DNA of 64,000 bases from an uncultured Flavobacteriales bacterium (GTDB lineage Bacteria; Bacteroidota; Bacteroidia; Flavobacteriales; Schleiferiaceae). The DNA lies in NCBI GenBank assembly GCA_913055685.1, contig CAJXKC010000001.1:1116001-1180000 (forward strand). Direction: 5' to 3'. Made by a program: the position numbers and the translations under genes. Shown piece by piece: positions 13,725 through 18,811 of the stretch (position 1 is the stretch's first letter; each line of letters opens with the position of its first letter). Under the pieces are notes generated by a model, which saw only the letters and a program-made list of their open reading frames with translations, was not told where the DNA came from and made no database searches.

Positions 13725-14798
13725 TTGCAGATTTTAAGAGGAATTTGGAAAGACCCACTGGGAGCAGCAGGTTTGCTCATTATTGCGATAGGCGCCTTTT
13801 TGGCCCTCTTTGCCTATACCTTAATTTCGGATGATAGTCCGAATGCGAACGAAATGCATTTGGCCATCAGCAATCAAGCCCCCGGTTTTGAAGCAGAGTT
13901 TCTATTAATTCCTAGGGAAGCGGAAAAGGTGAATGCCTGGGAAGCTTTTTGGTCAGGCAAGCCATCTGCCTTTGAGCGTATCCCTCTAAGAGATTATAGC
14001 TTAAAAGACACTAAACTTTTTTATTATGATTTCGGGGCGGCCAAGGAGGCGGAAGCGAAATCTATAAACCTTGCCCAATACTATGGCCCAGATGATATTT
14101 CTAAGGAGGCCTTTCTCGAAAAGAAAAGCTATTATTTAGGCACCGATCGCTACGGAAGAGACCTATTAAGTCGCTTAGTACTTGGGGCAAGGGTGTCTTT
14201 CTCAGTGGGTTTTTTAGCCGTTTTAATTTCCTTAATTATTGGTATTCCCTTGGGGGCTATTGCCGCCTACTATGGGGGCTGGGTAGACAAGCTGATCTTA
14301 TGGTTTATTAATGTGGTTTGGTCTATACCTGGACTTCTATTAGTGATTGCTATTACCCTGGCTCTTGGCAAAGGCCTATGGCAGGTATTTATTGCTATTG
14401 GTTTTACTATGTGGGTTGAGGTCGCACGGGTAATTCGTGGACAAATTATGAGTATCCGCGAAAAGGAATACATTCAGGCGGCCAAGGTTTTAGGCTTTTC
14501 AGATTTACGCATTATCTGGAAGCATATTCTACCCAATGCCACCGCTCCTTTGATTGTGATATCGGCGGCCAATTTTGCGGCGGCCATCCTGGTAGAAAGC
14601 GGACTTAGCTTTTTAGGTTTAGGGGCACAACCTCCGAGTCCAACCTGGGGTACCATGATTAAAGATCATTATGCTTATTTGATCATGGATAAAGCCTACC
14701 TGGCTATTATTCCGGGTCTCGCAATAATGCTCTTAGTGCTCTCCTTTATGTTTGTGGGTAATGCCTTACGCGATACCTTGGACGTGAAAAGTATCTAG
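13725..14798 (+). CDS. OppC-like ABC transporter permease, TTG start
   Basis: 357 residues. One N-terminal membrane helix (~12-35), an unusually long extracytoplasmic stretch (~36-140), the conserved LGTDRYGRDLLSRLVLGAR entry to the BPD_transp_1 domain, and five more helices. The EAA loop is clear (EYIQAAKVLGFSDLRIIWKHI split before LPN). This is the OppC/DppC type of peptide or nickel importer permease. No partner permease, ATPase or binding protein lies nearby. The only in-frame initiator that keeps the first helix is TTG at 13725, 2 bases after the prc stop; the nearest upstream in-frame stop is at 13716-13718. Confidence 0.88.
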   Translation: MQILRGIWKDPLGAAGLLIIAIGAFLALFAYTLISDDSPNANEMHLAISNQAPGFEAEFLLIPREAEKVNAWEAFWSGKPSAFERIPLRDYSLKDTKLFYYDFGAAKEAEAKSINLAQYYGPDDISKEAFLEKKSYYLGTDRYGRDLLSRLVLGARVSFSVGFLAVLISLIIGIPLGAIAAYYGGWVDKLILWFINVVWSIPGLLLVIAITLALGKGLWQVFIAIGFTMWVEVARVIRGQIMSIREKEYIQAAKVLGFSDLRIIWKHILPNATAPLIVISAANFAAAILVESGLSFLGLGAQPPSPTWGTMIKDHYAYLIMDKAYLAIIPGLAIMLLVLSFMFVGNALRDTLDVKSI

Positions 14799-15394
14799 AA
14801 GTTTAGGCGAATACCTACTCCTTCTGCATTAACATTGATGTTTTGTAGATAAGGTATTAGATCGGCGCTACCGTGACTTGCATGCAGCCAGTACATGATT
14901 AAATCAAAACTGAGTAGAAAGGCACCATTTACAATTATTGCTCGGCCAAAACCTTCCCAACGATTGTATTTATCCGCTTCATTTTTCGCTCTTTCTCGGA
15001 GGTAAAAACCTCCCGCCATATAGGCAATGTCGAGCGCCGCATTTACTGCTAATATCCGTTTAATACTTTCTTGCTCTTGCCAGGAATCAAGTAAGCTCAA
15101 ACTTTCAATACTCTGACTTTGATAATAGCCAAAACCAGCGATAATAAGGTTAACCGCATTCCAGCCAAGATTCATCTGATGATAAGCCTTGTTTAAACCA
15201 TTGGGATGTTTCAAATTAAAGGCACTCCAAGTCATGTTGGCAATAGACCAAGAGCCAAGGACTAACATTCCCTGCCTATTTAGGCTTAAGCGATCCTGGT
15301 TAAATTCGGCTAGCCAGTTTGAACTGTCTTGAGCGCTTATGCCGAAGCTCAAAACCAGCAAAAGTGAAAGCAGTAGCAGTTTCTTGAAAGTCAT
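14795..15394 (-). CDS. Uncharacterised membrane protein with signal peptide
   Basis: 199 residues. A cleavable-looking signal peptide (~1-21, ending SFGISAQ) is followed by four hydrophobic segments (~43-60, ~75-92, ~115-133, ~150-170). Conserved-looking aromatic stretches include SWSIANMTWSAFNL and MNLGWNAVNLIIAGFGYY. It resembles small Bacteroidota-only integral membrane families (possibly the one named DUF6992), but I cannot confirm the family. It overlaps the convergent OppC-like gene by 4 bases and lies about 20 bases after the aat start region on the same strand. No function is proposed. Confidence 0.7.
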   Translation of the reverse strand: MTFKKLLLLSLLLVLSFGISAQDSSNWLAEFNQDRLSLNRQGMLVLGSWSIANMTWSAFNLKHPNGLNKAYHQMNLGWNAVNLIIAGFGYYQSQSIESLSLLDSWQEQESIKRILAVNAALDIAYMAGGFYLRERAKNEADKYNRWEGFGRAIIVNGAFLLSFDLIMYWLHASHGSADLIPYLQNINVNAEGVGIRLNF

Positions 15395-15415: not shown

Positions 15416-16117
15416 CTAGAATTGTTCTTCTGGGTCGAAAACCAGACCGGCATCCTTAGGTTTTTCTAAAGCTTGCTTTAATTGTTTATTGAAAGCCTCT
15501 CGGTGAATGGTTATCGCTCCAAGGCTTCCCAAGTGAGGATTGTAAACCTGACAGTCCACTAAGTCATAACCAAAGGCTTCCAGTCGCTGACAAAGTCTAA
15601 TAAAACAGATTTTACTAGCATTGCTTGCTTTGGAGAACATGGATTCTCCAAAAAATACAGAGCCCATTGCTAAACCGTATAAACCACCTACCAATTCCCC
15701 ATTCTGCCAAGCTTCTACGCTATGGGCTAATCCTTTTTGGTGTAATTCTACAAATGAATCGAGGTGTGCCTTTGTAATCCAAGTGCCATCCTGACCCGGC
15801 CGCTCAATAGATTGGCACGCTTCTATTACTTGGGTAAAGGCTCGGTTAAAAGTGATGGTAAAACGCCTCTGGTTTAAAAGGTTACGACTACTCTTGGTAA
15901 TACGAATTTGTCGCGGTATTAAAATAGCCCGTTCTAGTGGACTCCACCAAAGGAGAATTCCTTCAGGTTCGTTCCAAGGGAAAGCCCCTAATCGATAGGC
16001 TTCAATTAAGCGCTCTGGTTTTAAATCACCCCCAATTGCTACAATATCATTATCAACATTCCAATCCTCGGACTGAGGAAACCACAGTGAATCGTTATGA
16101 AGTTCGTAAATGGCCAA
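15416..16117 (-). CDS. aat: Leucyl/phenylalanyl-tRNA-protein transferase, TTG start
   Basis: 233 residues, matching E. coli Aat in length. Conserved blocks: VAIGGDLKPERLIEAYRLGA with FPW, LLWWSPLERAIL, GTWIT, AHSVEAW, ELVGGLYGLAMGSVFFGESM and DCQVYNPHLGSLGA. The enzyme adds Leu or Phe to N-terminal Arg/Lys of proteins, marking them for ClpS/ClpAP (N-end rule). The protein aligns from its first residues with known Aat proteins, so the TTG at 16117 is the best start. That TTG follows the TAA of the AtoE-like gene with no gap and in the same frame. Confidence 0.94.
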   Translation of the reverse strand: MAIYELHNDSLWFPQSEDWNVDNDIVAIGGDLKPERLIEAYRLGAFPWNEPEGILLWWSPLERAILIPRQIRITKSSRNLLNQRRFTITFNRAFTQVIEACQSIERPGQDGTWITKAHLDSFVELHQKGLAHSVEAWQNGELVGGLYGLAMGSVFFGESMFSKASNASKICFIRLCQRLEAFGYDLVDCQVYNPHLGSLGAITIHREAFNKQLKQALEKPKDAGLVFDPEEQF

Positions 16118-17470
16118 TTAGAAGATCATTAAGGCTATTCCAAAAGTAAGCAAGCCCAAAAGCATTAAAATAAGAGTATAAGGTACAATTTCTCGCGCTT
16201 TTAAGCCGGTGATACCCAATAGGGGTAAGGCCCAAAATGGTTGCAGCATATTGGTAAGCTGATCCCCATAGGCCATAGCCATAATCGCTTTGGCAAAAGG
16301 AATATTTAACTGACTAGCAGTTTCAAGGATCACGGGACCTTGAATAGCCCATTGTCCGCCTCCGCTGGGAACAAAAACATTGATAATCCCTGCCGATAAA
16401 AAAGTGTAAAGGGGAAAACTAAAGGCCGTGCTATGGCTACTGAAATAGGCGCTAAGCGCTGCAATTAATCCTCCGTCTTTCATGAGTCCCATTATTCCGA
16501 AATAGAGTGGGAATTGGAGCAGTATGCCTGCCGCCCCTTGAATGGCTTCATCGATAGCCTTCAAAAATGAAAGTAAATTTTGATGAAAAATAAGACTAAG
16601 ACCAAGGAGCATCATATTAATGTAATTGGGACTAATAAAGCTCGAATCTATACTGGATAAAGCTTCATAAATCCCGATCCCAACAATAGCTAAACCAATG
16701 CTTAGGCCGAAATAGCGGGAATAATCAATTCGTTCGGCTCCTCGAACCTTTTCTAAGGTGCCTTCCTTTTTCTGAGCGCTTATTTGTCGATCAGAGCGAG
16801 GGGCCTTTTTACTTAATAAAAATAGACTTAGTGGTATTAAGATGAGTAGGATTAGGTTTGGCCAAATATTCAAGGCACTTAAAAGAGTTTCACCAAATCC
16901 CAATCGATCGGGAAGTCCAGGTGTTTCGGGACTTAAGGATTGCAAGTGTCCCAGTTCCGCAACTTTAATGGGGGCGCTACCACTAAGGCCGCCGTGCCAA
17001 ACCATTAAGCCGCTATAACCCGCTGCACCCAGTAGCCCGTAATTAAAGGGAATACCTTTAGCACTAAAATCTTCTGCCGCTTTACGCGCCATTACAGCTC
17101 CGAAGACTAAGGCCAAACCCCAATTGAAATAGGCAACTAATAAGGTGAAAAAAGCGACTAAAGCAGTACTGGTCTCGGGTCTGCGCGATAGTTTTAGAAT
17201 TTGATTGATGAAGGTCTTGATACTAGGAGCTAAGGCCAAGCTATGACCAAGCACTAATATCAGCATCATCTGCACCATAAAAACCAGCAAGGGGCCATTC
17301 CAGAGCCCCTTTTGCCAGTCATTTACAGAATTTTCAAGCCTTAGAGAGAAACTCCCTTCAGCATAAAGCCAGTATAAAACGAAGCTGAGTAAGCTTAGCA
17401 ATATTGCAATCGCGAAGGGCGAAGGCAATAAATAGCGGAAAGCTTTTTCGAATTTTCTGGCAAAGCTCAT
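16118..17470 (-). CDS. AtoE-like short-chain fatty acid transporter
   Basis: 450 residues with about 11-12 membrane helices. Recognisable family features are the N-terminal LPSPFAIAILLSLLSFVLYW helix, FNWGLALVFGAVMARKAAED, the HGGLSGSAPIKVAE loop and the PSGGGQWAIQGPVI motif near residue 350. The family imports short-chain fatty acids such as acetoacetate or butyrate across the inner membrane. It is the third gene of a minus-strand operon (flavin reductase, DUF3127, this gene, aat); the gap to DUF3127 is 5 bases. The substrate is inferred from the family only. Confidence 0.9.
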   Translation of the reverse strand: MSFARKFEKAFRYLLPSPFAIAILLSLLSFVLYWLYAEGSFSLRLENSVNDWQKGLWNGPLLVFMVQMMLILVLGHSLALAPSIKTFINQILKLSRRPETSTALVAFFTLLVAYFNWGLALVFGAVMARKAAEDFSAKGIPFNYGLLGAAGYSGLMVWHGGLSGSAPIKVAELGHLQSLSPETPGLPDRLGFGETLLSALNIWPNLILLILIPLSLFLLSKKAPRSDRQISAQKKEGTLEKVRGAERIDYSRYFGLSIGLAIVGIGIYEALSSIDSSFISPNYINMMLLGLSLIFHQNLLSFLKAIDEAIQGAAGILLQFPLYFGIMGLMKDGGLIAALSAYFSSHSTAFSFPLYTFLSAGIINVFVPSGGGQWAIQGPVILETASQLNIPFAKAIMAMAYGDQLTNMLQPFWALPLLGITGLKAREIVPYTLILMLLGLLTFGIALMIF

Positions 17471-17475
17471 TTTAC

Positions 17476-17877
17476 CTAGAAGGGTAAATCGTCATCGTCT
17501 TCTTCATAAGGCGCCATGCCGGGAGGTTTACTAAAGTCATTACCTTGACTATTTTCTGAGGCAAAGCCCTCGGCGCTGCTAGGAGCAGGGCTAGGAGCGG
17601 CTCCACCGGCTTTTTCAATGCGCCATCCCTGAATGGAATTGAAATATTTCACCTCTCCTTGTGGTGAGGTCCACTCGCGACCACGAAGATTGATGCCGAT
17701 CGTTACTTTTTCGCCTTCACGGTAAGTATCTAATAAGTCGGTTTTGTCTTGAACGAATTCGATGCTTAAATGCTGAGGATATTGTTCTTCGGTAGTTACT
17801 ACAATTTCTCTTTTGCGAAAATTAGCACTTACTTGTTGGGTGTCACTGATGCGTTTTACGGTTCCGCTTACTTCCAT
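17476..17877 (-). CDS. DUF3127 protein with an SSB-like acidic tail
   Basis: 133 residues. The N-terminal ~90 residues (EVSGTVKRISDTQQVSANF, then REIVVTTEEQYPQHLSIEF) match the DUF3127 family and look like a small beta-barrel. A Pro/Ala/Ser-rich linker follows, and the protein ends EEDDDDLPF. That tip is nearly identical to the C-terminal peptide by which SSB recruits repair and replication proteins (DDDIPF in E. coli). It sits 5 bases downstream of the flavin reductase and 5 bases upstream of the AtoE-like gene. A role in binding single-stranded nucleic acid is an inference. Confidence 0.85.
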   Translation of the reverse strand: MEVSGTVKRISDTQQVSANFRKREIVVTTEEQYPQHLSIEFVQDKTDLLDTYREGEKVTIGINLRGREWTSPQGEVKYFNSIQGWRIEKAGGAAPSPAPSSAEGFASENSQGNDFSKPPGMAPYEEDDDDLPF

Positions 17878-17882
17878 TTGAT

Positions 17883-18785
17883 TTAGTTACGATTAAGTCG
17901 GTCACTTAAAAGCACTTTCCAGGCTTTTTGGACCTTATTTTTAGCTAATAGTTCTTTGGCGTATTCATGTAATTGCTCGCGTGCTTCCATGCCGTCGGCC
18001 GAGTTTGCGAAGATATCCTTGATTCTTGGATGAGCGGCAATTTCTGCAATTTCTTCGTCATTGGGGAGCCTCTCTACATTTCCTAGCTTCCCTAGGTCAT
18101 TGCCAGATAAGAAAACACTATTACGAATGCGTGGAGGAATTTGATCAATACCAATGCCAAGGGTGGCTAAGGGTTTTTCTACTTCAAACATCGATTCCCC
18201 GGTCGCACGGGTGTACCAGTTGGCACCCATTCGGGCAACCAAATCTAGTTTGGTACAGTCGGTTATCCCCTGTTCGTTAAGCACCGATTCGTCTACATGC
18301 ATTCGTAAAACCTCACAAATAATTAGGTTTCCAGCTCCACCTTCTTCACCCAGGTATATGATGTCATTGACCTTACATTCGAATTGTACCGGTGATTCCT
18401 TCACTCTAAATGGAGCTACCAAATCAGACTTAATGGGTGTTAATCCTGCTTTTTCAAATTCATTCACCTCTGATGGATATTCCGTGGAGGAAAGTGACAT
18501 TTGCTCAACCAGGTCAAAATTCACCACATTAATAACCACCTCACGGGTTTTTTCAATGTTAAACAGGGTGTCTTTATTGGTGTTGTTTCTTACCCTACGA
18601 TTGGGAGAGAAAATAAGTACCGGTGGTCTGGTGCTAAATACATTGAAATAGCTAAAAGGACTAAGGTTTGCCTGCCCGTCCTCATTTACGGTACTGGCAA
18701 AAGCAATAGGACGTGGCCCTACGGCTGCTAATAGATGAGCATGGGCTTCTTTTCCCGCTAACTCGTTTAAGTCTATTGATTTCAT
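17883..18785 (-). CDS. Flavin reductase-like FMN-binding split-barrel protein
   Basis: 300 residues from ATG 18785. A TTG 21 bases upstream would extend it, but that codon falls inside the predicted -7 box, so the ATG is preferred. The N-terminal ~190 residues form a flavin-reductase domain: AAVGPRPIAFASTVNEDGQA, then NLSPFSYFN and a VVINVVN strand, typical of proteins that bind FMN and use NAD(P)H. The C-terminal ~100 residues are helical and charged. It is the first gene of the operon with DUF3127, the AtoE-like transporter and aat. The physiological acceptor is unknown. Confidence 0.88.
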   Translation of the reverse strand: MKSIDLNELAGKEAHAHLLAAVGPRPIAFASTVNEDGQANLSPFSYFNVFSTRPPVLIFSPNRRVRNNTNKDTLFNIEKTREVVINVVNFDLVEQMSLSSTEYPSEVNEFEKAGLTPIKSDLVAPFRVKESPVQFECKVNDIIYLGEEGGAGNLIICEVLRMHVDESVLNEQGITDCTKLDLVARMGANWYTRATGESMFEVEKPLATLGIGIDQIPPRIRNSVFLSGNDLGKLGNVERLPNDEEIAEIAAHPRIKDIFANSADGMEAREQLHEYAKELLAKNKVQKAWKVLLSDRLNRN

Positions 18786-18803
18786 GTCTTTTCTGATCTT
18801 AGG

Positions 18804-18811
18804 CAAAAATA
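18804..18811 (-). promoter_or_regulatory. -7 box for the flavin reductase operon
   Basis: TATTTTTG on the minus strand matches TAnnTTTG and lies 19 bases upstream of ATG 18785. It overlaps the alternative TTG start at 18806, which argues for the ATG. Confidence 0.5.

Follow-up and report, generated by a model that had tools for sequence, protein, structure and literature searches.

The DUF3127 gene at positions 17476 to 17877 on the minus strand of the window (the whole 64,000-nucleotide stretch of DNA analyzed here) likely encodes a hub for single-stranded DNA (ssDNA) that resembles the bacterial single-stranded DNA-binding protein (SSB): a distant SSB paralogue with an SSB-type C-terminal tip (SSB-Ct), present beside an ordinary SSB. 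The gene starts with ATG and encodes 133 amino acids arranged in three parts, all on the minus strand: (i) an OB-fold domain (residues 1 to 89; 17611 to 17877), (ii) a linker rich in Ala, Pro, Ser, and Gly (residues 90 to 124; 17506 to 17610), delimited by low model confidence, variable alignment columns, and the composition of the family's pooled linkers, which are rich in the same residues, and (iii) an acidic tip, EEDDDDLPF (residues 125 to 133; 17479 to 17505). In the translation, the TAG stop codon (17476 to 17478) follows Phe133 immediately and leaves the C terminus free. The sequence-only reading had likened this tail to the SSB C-terminal peptide and the whole protein to the barrel, linker, and tip of SSB. 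The frame is real, it shares its final seven residues (DDDDLPF) with the SSB in the same genome, and a predicted OB barrel, a low-confidence linker, and the tip succeed one another as proposed. The observation of a DUF3127 protein with an SSB-like tip was confirmed, and its interpretation as SSB-like was supported by the comparisons of sequence and predicted structure described below.

Pfam family PF11325 (DUF3127), whose text reads “Domain of unknown function,” matched residues 2 to 88 (E = 1.8e-29; 102.2 bits versus a cut-off of 27), which upholds the family assignment made earlier from the letters alone. The whole length of the protein was matched by phrog_4932, “single strand DNA binding protein” (residues 1 to 133 on positions 1 to 117 of 117; E = 1.1e-42); PHROG 4932 is a phage family, whereas the window copy is a chromosomal gene. 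PHROG 44, which bears the same label, matched residues 31 to 133 (E = 1.5e-7). The Pfam search returned no match to PF00436 (SSB) at E ≤ 10, and TIGR00621 (ssb) scored 11.9 bits (E = 0.21) versus a cut-off of 53.95, which leaves the protein below that SSB family model; all NCBIfam matches were weak. Weak hits to IF-3 (its C-terminal domain; E = 0.096) and to two models of replication factor A (E = 0.16 and E = 0.24) fell under their cut-offs and were not used. Among named relatives, the closest came from a MAG of an uncultured Bacteroidetes bacterium (69% identity) and from flavobacteria, so the window genome was taken to belong to the phylum Bacteroidota and presumably to the class Bacteroidia.

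The AlphaFold2 model was confident over residues 1 to 90 (pLDDT of 96 to 98 per block) and not over residues 91 to 130 (56 to 62). The predicted elements are strands at residues 2 to 10, 14 to 17, 20 to 29, and 36 to 42, a helix at 43 to 51, and strands at 57 to 70 and 76 to 89, which is the order of an OB fold. With Foldseek, the 50 rows listed were all SSBs, bacterial save for one mitochondrial protein (Rim1), with a best E value of 1.5e-6 and, for the first row, a TM score to the target of 0.74. With VIA-align, whose list does not exclude fold families absent from it, the top match was the SSB of Salinibacter (Z of 12.3; rmsd of 2.3 over 90 residues), tied with chains of the primosomal protein PriB (1woc, 11.7; 3klw, 11.7; 1txy, 11.4); an RNA-editing complex chain, 9dei, was also listed (Z of 11.0). 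The comparison with OB domains proposed along with the first reading thus recovered those of both SSB and PriB for the predicted barrel.

Kinship with SSB was also apparent at the profile level. We built an OB-only alignment of the family (A2; 69 rows, i.e., the window protein and 68 of 80 prepared representatives) that is free of the tail, so the tail cannot decide a match to SSB. Searched against the PDB, the A2 profile found Deinococcus SSB best (E = 4.8e-6). The list to E of 10 held 26 distinct sequences, 24 of them SSBs and two of them RhoGDI (E = 0.72 and 1); PriB was not among the 26, which does not in itself exclude it. The full profile (A1), which includes the tail, gave a lower E value for Deinococcus SSB (1.7e-8), but FosB, a seminal ribonuclease, and CENP-I were among its 29 matches to E of 10, and A2 was preferred. 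Aligned directly by hhalign with an alignment of SSBs (A3; 31 rows), A2 gave a probability of 83% and an E value of 8.9e-6 for this single comparison over 47 columns. As a single sequence, the window protein resembled SSB weakly (E = 0.42), and another alignment spanned residues 53 to 123 only. The N-terminal consensus of the A3 SSBs (LNKVxLIGNLGxDPE) was absent from DUF3127. Because the tail-free profile matched SSBs in both the PDB and A3, the barrel appears related to that of SSB, mainly via its second half, and common ancestry rather than mimicry looks right. Since the profile finds SSBs yet the protein falls below the SSB family models, DUF3127 looks like a distant SSB paralogue. In layout, bacterial SSB (PF00436/TIGR00621, e.g., that of E. 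coli) likewise has an OB barrel, a linker, an acidic xPF tip, and a free C terminus.

Within the barrel, aromatic residues were frequent at positions 20, 33, 78, 79, and 85 (91 to 100% of the 109 rows of A1). By position, F or W occupied 20 in 99% of rows, Y or F occupied 33 in 95%, and W, Y, or F occupied 69 in 92%, while 78 was aromatic in 99% and 85 in 100%; K or R stood at 86 in 98%. The base-stacking residues given for E. coli SSB in the part of PMC3991886 cited here are W40, W54, F60, and W88. In the alignment with E of 0.42, which is not significant alone, W69 and F41 lie opposite W88 and F60 in an ungapped part, W54 lies opposite the nonaromatic Q35, and W40 falls outside; position 41 was aromatic in 16% of the 109 rows. 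The OB part of the window protein is not basic overall (pI of 5.8; charge of −1.4).

Conservation of the tip was assessed in 168 distinct family genes from 162 genomes of the phylum, a set from which one duplicate of the window gene was removed. Matches left out came mostly from the well-sampled families f3, f19, and f25, along with a split frame (G077), a match at a contig end (G257), and one gene under the Pfam cut-off (L116) that the profile did not recover. An end in PF was found in 161 of the 168, with Asp or Glu at position −4 in 150 and at −5 in 138. Among the 161, the residue before PF was Leu (109), Val (29), Cys (8), Ile (4), Ala (4), Met (3), Pro (3), or Gln (1), and at least 2 of the five residues preceding xPF were acidic in 158. 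The closest named relatives agreed, with a PF end in 79 of 80 and extra residues after PF in the remaining one. The terminal DDxPF that the earlier reading had singled out is therefore kept among homologues as xPF after acidic residues. In A1 (114 representatives less L093, L102, L114, and L115, which lack PF, and L097, which has it, for 109 rows), Pro132 and Phe133 were the only invariant columns, an invariance that follows from selection. The unselected figure of 161/168 is comparable with those for the most highly conserved barrel residues, W85 (104 of 109 rows) and G55 (103 of 109). Linker columns of A1 beside the tip had entropies near 3 bits, except for one aligned Pro.

The 7 genes without PF comprised 4 from family f14 (4 genomes in two genera) and 3 additional short copies from a single genome. 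Those of f14 (L093, L095, L100, and L102) keep an acidic end (like SSDVDDD), while the three f14 SSBs that were read (L215, L218, and L220) do end in DDLPF. A hidden PF tip was sought around the f14 stop codons, in the three frames of a segment that reaches 60 bases upstream and 90 bases downstream; since none ended in PF, a simple frame error is unsupported and loss in the lineage is likelier. The short DUF3127-like copies (L113, L114, and L115 of genome G394) lack both linker and tip, and a fourth, full copy in that genome has the tip.

Few other proteins of the window genome (2.96 Mb; 99.9% complete) share the tip. A DNA pattern for [DE][DE]xPF-stop gave 5 matches in this genome and 5 in a reversed control, so the raw count is not enriched and the argument against chance rests on which frames the pattern closes. 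Frames longer than 7 amino acids were closed in three cases only, namely, DnaB (NEDDIPF), SSB (DDDDLPF), and DUF3127 (DDDDLPF); the other two matches close 7-amino-acid frames. In three congeners, the pattern closed DnaB, SSB, and DUF3127 each (frames of at least 60 amino acids with a true stop; SSB and DnaB recognized by eye from near-identity to the proteins of the window genome), with a 66-amino-acid frame added in one. In G398 it closed DUF3127 alone among frames of at least 60 amino acids, and in G021 it closed DUF3127, two PF00436 proteins, and one caspase-domain protein. Across these 6 genomes (the window genome and five relatives), 16 of 18 pattern-bearing frames were SSB, DnaB, or DUF3127, and DUF3127 was the only pattern-bearing protein found in all 6; the pattern is strict, and a G021 DnaB ending in DSDVPF escapes it. 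A merely accidental resemblance of so short an acidic tail was rejected on the basis of family conservation together with the few frames that share the tip.

Among the other bearers, DnaB, the replicative helicase, carries the SSB-like tip NEDDIPF in the window genome (near C1:88765). In a draw of 61 genomes, the 30 DnaB_C proteins with the highest scores ended in PF (24), PI (3), or SF, AF, or GF (3); by hand count, 15 of the 30 had PF with at least 2 acidic residues among the five positions that precede x. All 30 best-scoring SSBs of the same draw ended in PF. The G021 caspase-domain protein (L431:219-1625, plus strand; 469 amino acids; Peptidase_C14, E = 2.2e-12) ends in ESDDLPF, which may be accidental, since its last codons overlap, by eye, a possible start of the next frame.

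PF11325 was present in 222 of 395 genomes sampled from the phylum, with a single match in 216 of the 222 by our count. By hand count, DUF3127 was found in 96 of the 98 genomes listed as the window genome itself or of the same order or class, where the 153 further genomes without a match were assumed, from the order of listing, to be all of the “same phylum” grade. Beyond the phylum, the search covered 14 named control genomes, of which Bacteroides ihuae alone was positive, and collections of phages and plasmids; two plasmid records of the family were labeled “DUF3127 domain-containing protein.” In the second draw, of 61 genomes, canonical SSB (PF00436) was found in 60 and DUF3127 in 34 (hand count), 33 of which also had PF00436; DUF3127 is therefore an addition to SSB and not a replacement for it. 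The exception, G024 (family f19), has DUF3127 without PF00436 in an assembly of about 210 contigs from which SSB may be missing. The window genome encodes two PF00436 proteins, one ending in DDDDLPF and the other a 117-amino-acid frame without that tip, and thus three SSB-like proteins once the second PF00436 protein is counted with SSB and DUF3127. This second PF00436 protein (C1:420511-420819) lacks a linker as well. Relative to bacterial SSB, then, DUF3127 differs in scoring below the family models, in lacking the N-terminal consensus, and in being found beside the canonical protein.

The host neighborhood said little about function. In the window, the gene lies in a tight row on the minus strand with a flavin reductase-like gene (17883 to 18806) and with genes for a short-chain fatty acid transporter (16118 to 17470), leucyl/phenylalanyl-tRNA-protein transferase (15416 to 16117), and a DUF6992 protein (14795 to 15394). 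A conserved operon was sought in the neighborhoods of the 168 genes (1 to 4 kb per side) and rejected, as no cluster occurred in more than 37 loci. Named from one representative each, the clusters included sensor-kinase-like genes in 37 loci (on mixed strands), aat-like genes in 32, flavin-reductase-like genes in 26, and alaS-like genes in 18. The 14 neighbor clusters listed for these loci included no replication operon, so we regard the host context as uninformative on function.

Phage genomes were more telling. A DUF3127 gene was carried by 117 phage records, 115 of them under flavobacterial genus names; host names included Flavobacterium, Polaribacter, Cellulophaga, Nonlabens, and Tenacibaculum, and the other two records read “Bacteroides” and “Bacteriophage.” That this phage branch is named SSB was already known: PHROGs does so, and the four RefSeq phage records that we opened name their DUF3127 copy single strand DNA binding protein. 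In Nonlabens phage P12024L, an Erf annealase and a YqaJ exonuclease are followed directly by the DUF3127 gene, and in Cellulophaga phage phi18:3 the gene is four genes from RecT. In Tenacibaculum phage Gundel_1, NinG is the second gene after DUF3127, and in Fpv5, RusA lies about 2.3 kb before it. DUF3127 is thus beside or near ssDNA-annealing genes in two of the four phages, and in the other two the recombination gene closest to it encodes a nuclease or resolvase and not an annealase. Apart from these four, 148 of 320 nonredundant viral neighbors, picked by hand on coordinates alone and mostly the nearest, were tallied: exonuclease families (14, 12, and 10, overlapping), unlabeled (9), Erf-like annealase (8), and RecT-like (4 and 4) PHROGs led, and Pfam agreed (ERF, 8; YqaJ, 7). 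PF00436 was absent from all 16 DUF3127 phage records searched (4 named phages and 12 IMG/VR records, possibly fragments).

The viral copies also carry the tip. Of 84 read (80 contigs and 4 phages), 83 were closed frames and 71 of these ended in PF, a rate that leans high because the 80 contigs were those most similar to the query out of at least 591. Several (L338, L352, L374, L390, L342, L396, and L398) have extra residues after PF (PFS, PFN, or PFDKQ) or end in PY or PW, alterations with which docking through a free C-terminal Phe might be weaker.

Bacterial SSB binds ssDNA independently of sequence, as an oligomer with four OB folds. DUF3127 would offer one OB barrel for ssDNA, a disordered linker, and a tip of the SSB-Ct type that docks enzymes of repair and replication. 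Several copies, presumably as an oligomer, would coat or tether to ssDNA via aromatic and basic residues that are conserved in the barrel. In E. coli, the SSB-Ct serves many genome-maintenance proteins as a docking signal, and deletion of its terminal Phe is lethal (PMC10164576, in excerpt). At its binding sites, as that excerpt describes, the terminal Phe enters a hydrophobic pocket, its carboxylate sits on a basic lip, and Asp residues are read by a basic ridge; loss of the Phe or a change of Pro to Ser abolishes or weakens binding. DUF3127 has the same features (an acidic run, Pro-Phe, and a free C terminus) on a flexible tether, and we infer that its tip may enter such pockets, e.g., in RecO, PriA, or RecG. 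In E. coli, SSB has RecO and PriA among its partners (excerpts of PMC7913777 and PMC5531588), and the window genome encodes RecO_C and PriA_C domains; the RecO and PriA of this organism would then bind the DUF3127 tip. In doing so, DUF3127 would bring such enzymes to ssDNA, alongside SSB or instead of it, under a division of labor between the two. In the host, given that a canonical SSB almost always accompanies it, its role is probably that of an accessory ssDNA hub of a repair or recombination type, while phages would use the family as their own SSB.

Other readings of the same barrel and tip were weighed. PriB shares a single OB fold with DUF3127 (Z of up to 11.7), its chains fall within 1 Z of SSB in VIA-align, and PriA_C is encoded in the window genome; DUF3127 might therefore be a PriB-like part of the primosome, i.e., a small dimeric OB protein that binds PriA and ssDNA in replication restart, with a tip added. 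We think this improbable, given that PriB is described as lacking the SSB C-terminal part (PMC8509808, in the portion cited here), whereas 161 of 168 DUF3127 genes keep an SSB-type tail; viral copies, moreover, often have annealase or exonuclease neighbors, and PriB is missing from the 26 listed tail-free profile matches, though this is not an exclusion.

The tip, being as well conserved as W85 and G55, could instead be the business end of an adaptor or decoy that occupies SSB-Ct pockets and regulates repair enzymes without coating ssDNA, in genomes where canonical SSB is already at hand (60 of the 61 sampled). Conserved aromatic and basic positions in the barrel favor nucleic acid binding, the 16 phage records carry DUF3127 and not PF00436, and one genome retains tipless copies, all of which make such a role quite unlikely. 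OB folds also bind RNA, so an RNA-binding protein whose acidic C terminus is unrelated to SSB-Ct is conceivable, and the RNA-editing chain 9dei in the structure list and the aat-like and alaS-like host neighbors in part of the genomes would fit. We hold this to be the least probable reading, and a very improbable one, as the tail-free profile matches are SSBs, the labeled viral neighbors are mainly DNA recombination genes, and the position of the tip, its Pro-Phe, and its free carboxyl fit the SSB-Ct (PMC10164576, as excerpted). An SSB-like ssDNA hub thus remains the preferred reading of DUF3127.

By the name DUF3127, the open-access literature yielded one phage paper only (PMC8004638). In the part of it cited here, the ORF25 SSB of Pantoea phage AAS23 is reported to combine an SSB-type OB domain with a DUF3127 domain, with E. 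coli SSB as its best HHpred match; ORF25 is likened to the window protein by this description. No paper on a cellular DUF3127 protein or on an SSB-like DnaB tip was found by title or start of abstract among the open-access papers listed, which is weak evidence of absence.

More speculatively, these bacteria may run two parallel ssDNA hubs, SSB and DUF3127, whose nearly interchangeable tips compete for the same enzyme pockets, with DnaB as a third bearer; their replication fork would then follow a tip code of three proteins that differs from the one in E. coli and that phages would exploit by bringing a DUF3127 copy as their own SSB. We offer this as a tentative model that is rather less likely than not to hold in full. 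A second tip-bearing OB protein, if real, would make one-SSB models of repair traffic incomplete for a large bacterial group. With it, a domain of unknown function would gain a named and testable function, one that suggests why phages of such hosts carry DUF3127.
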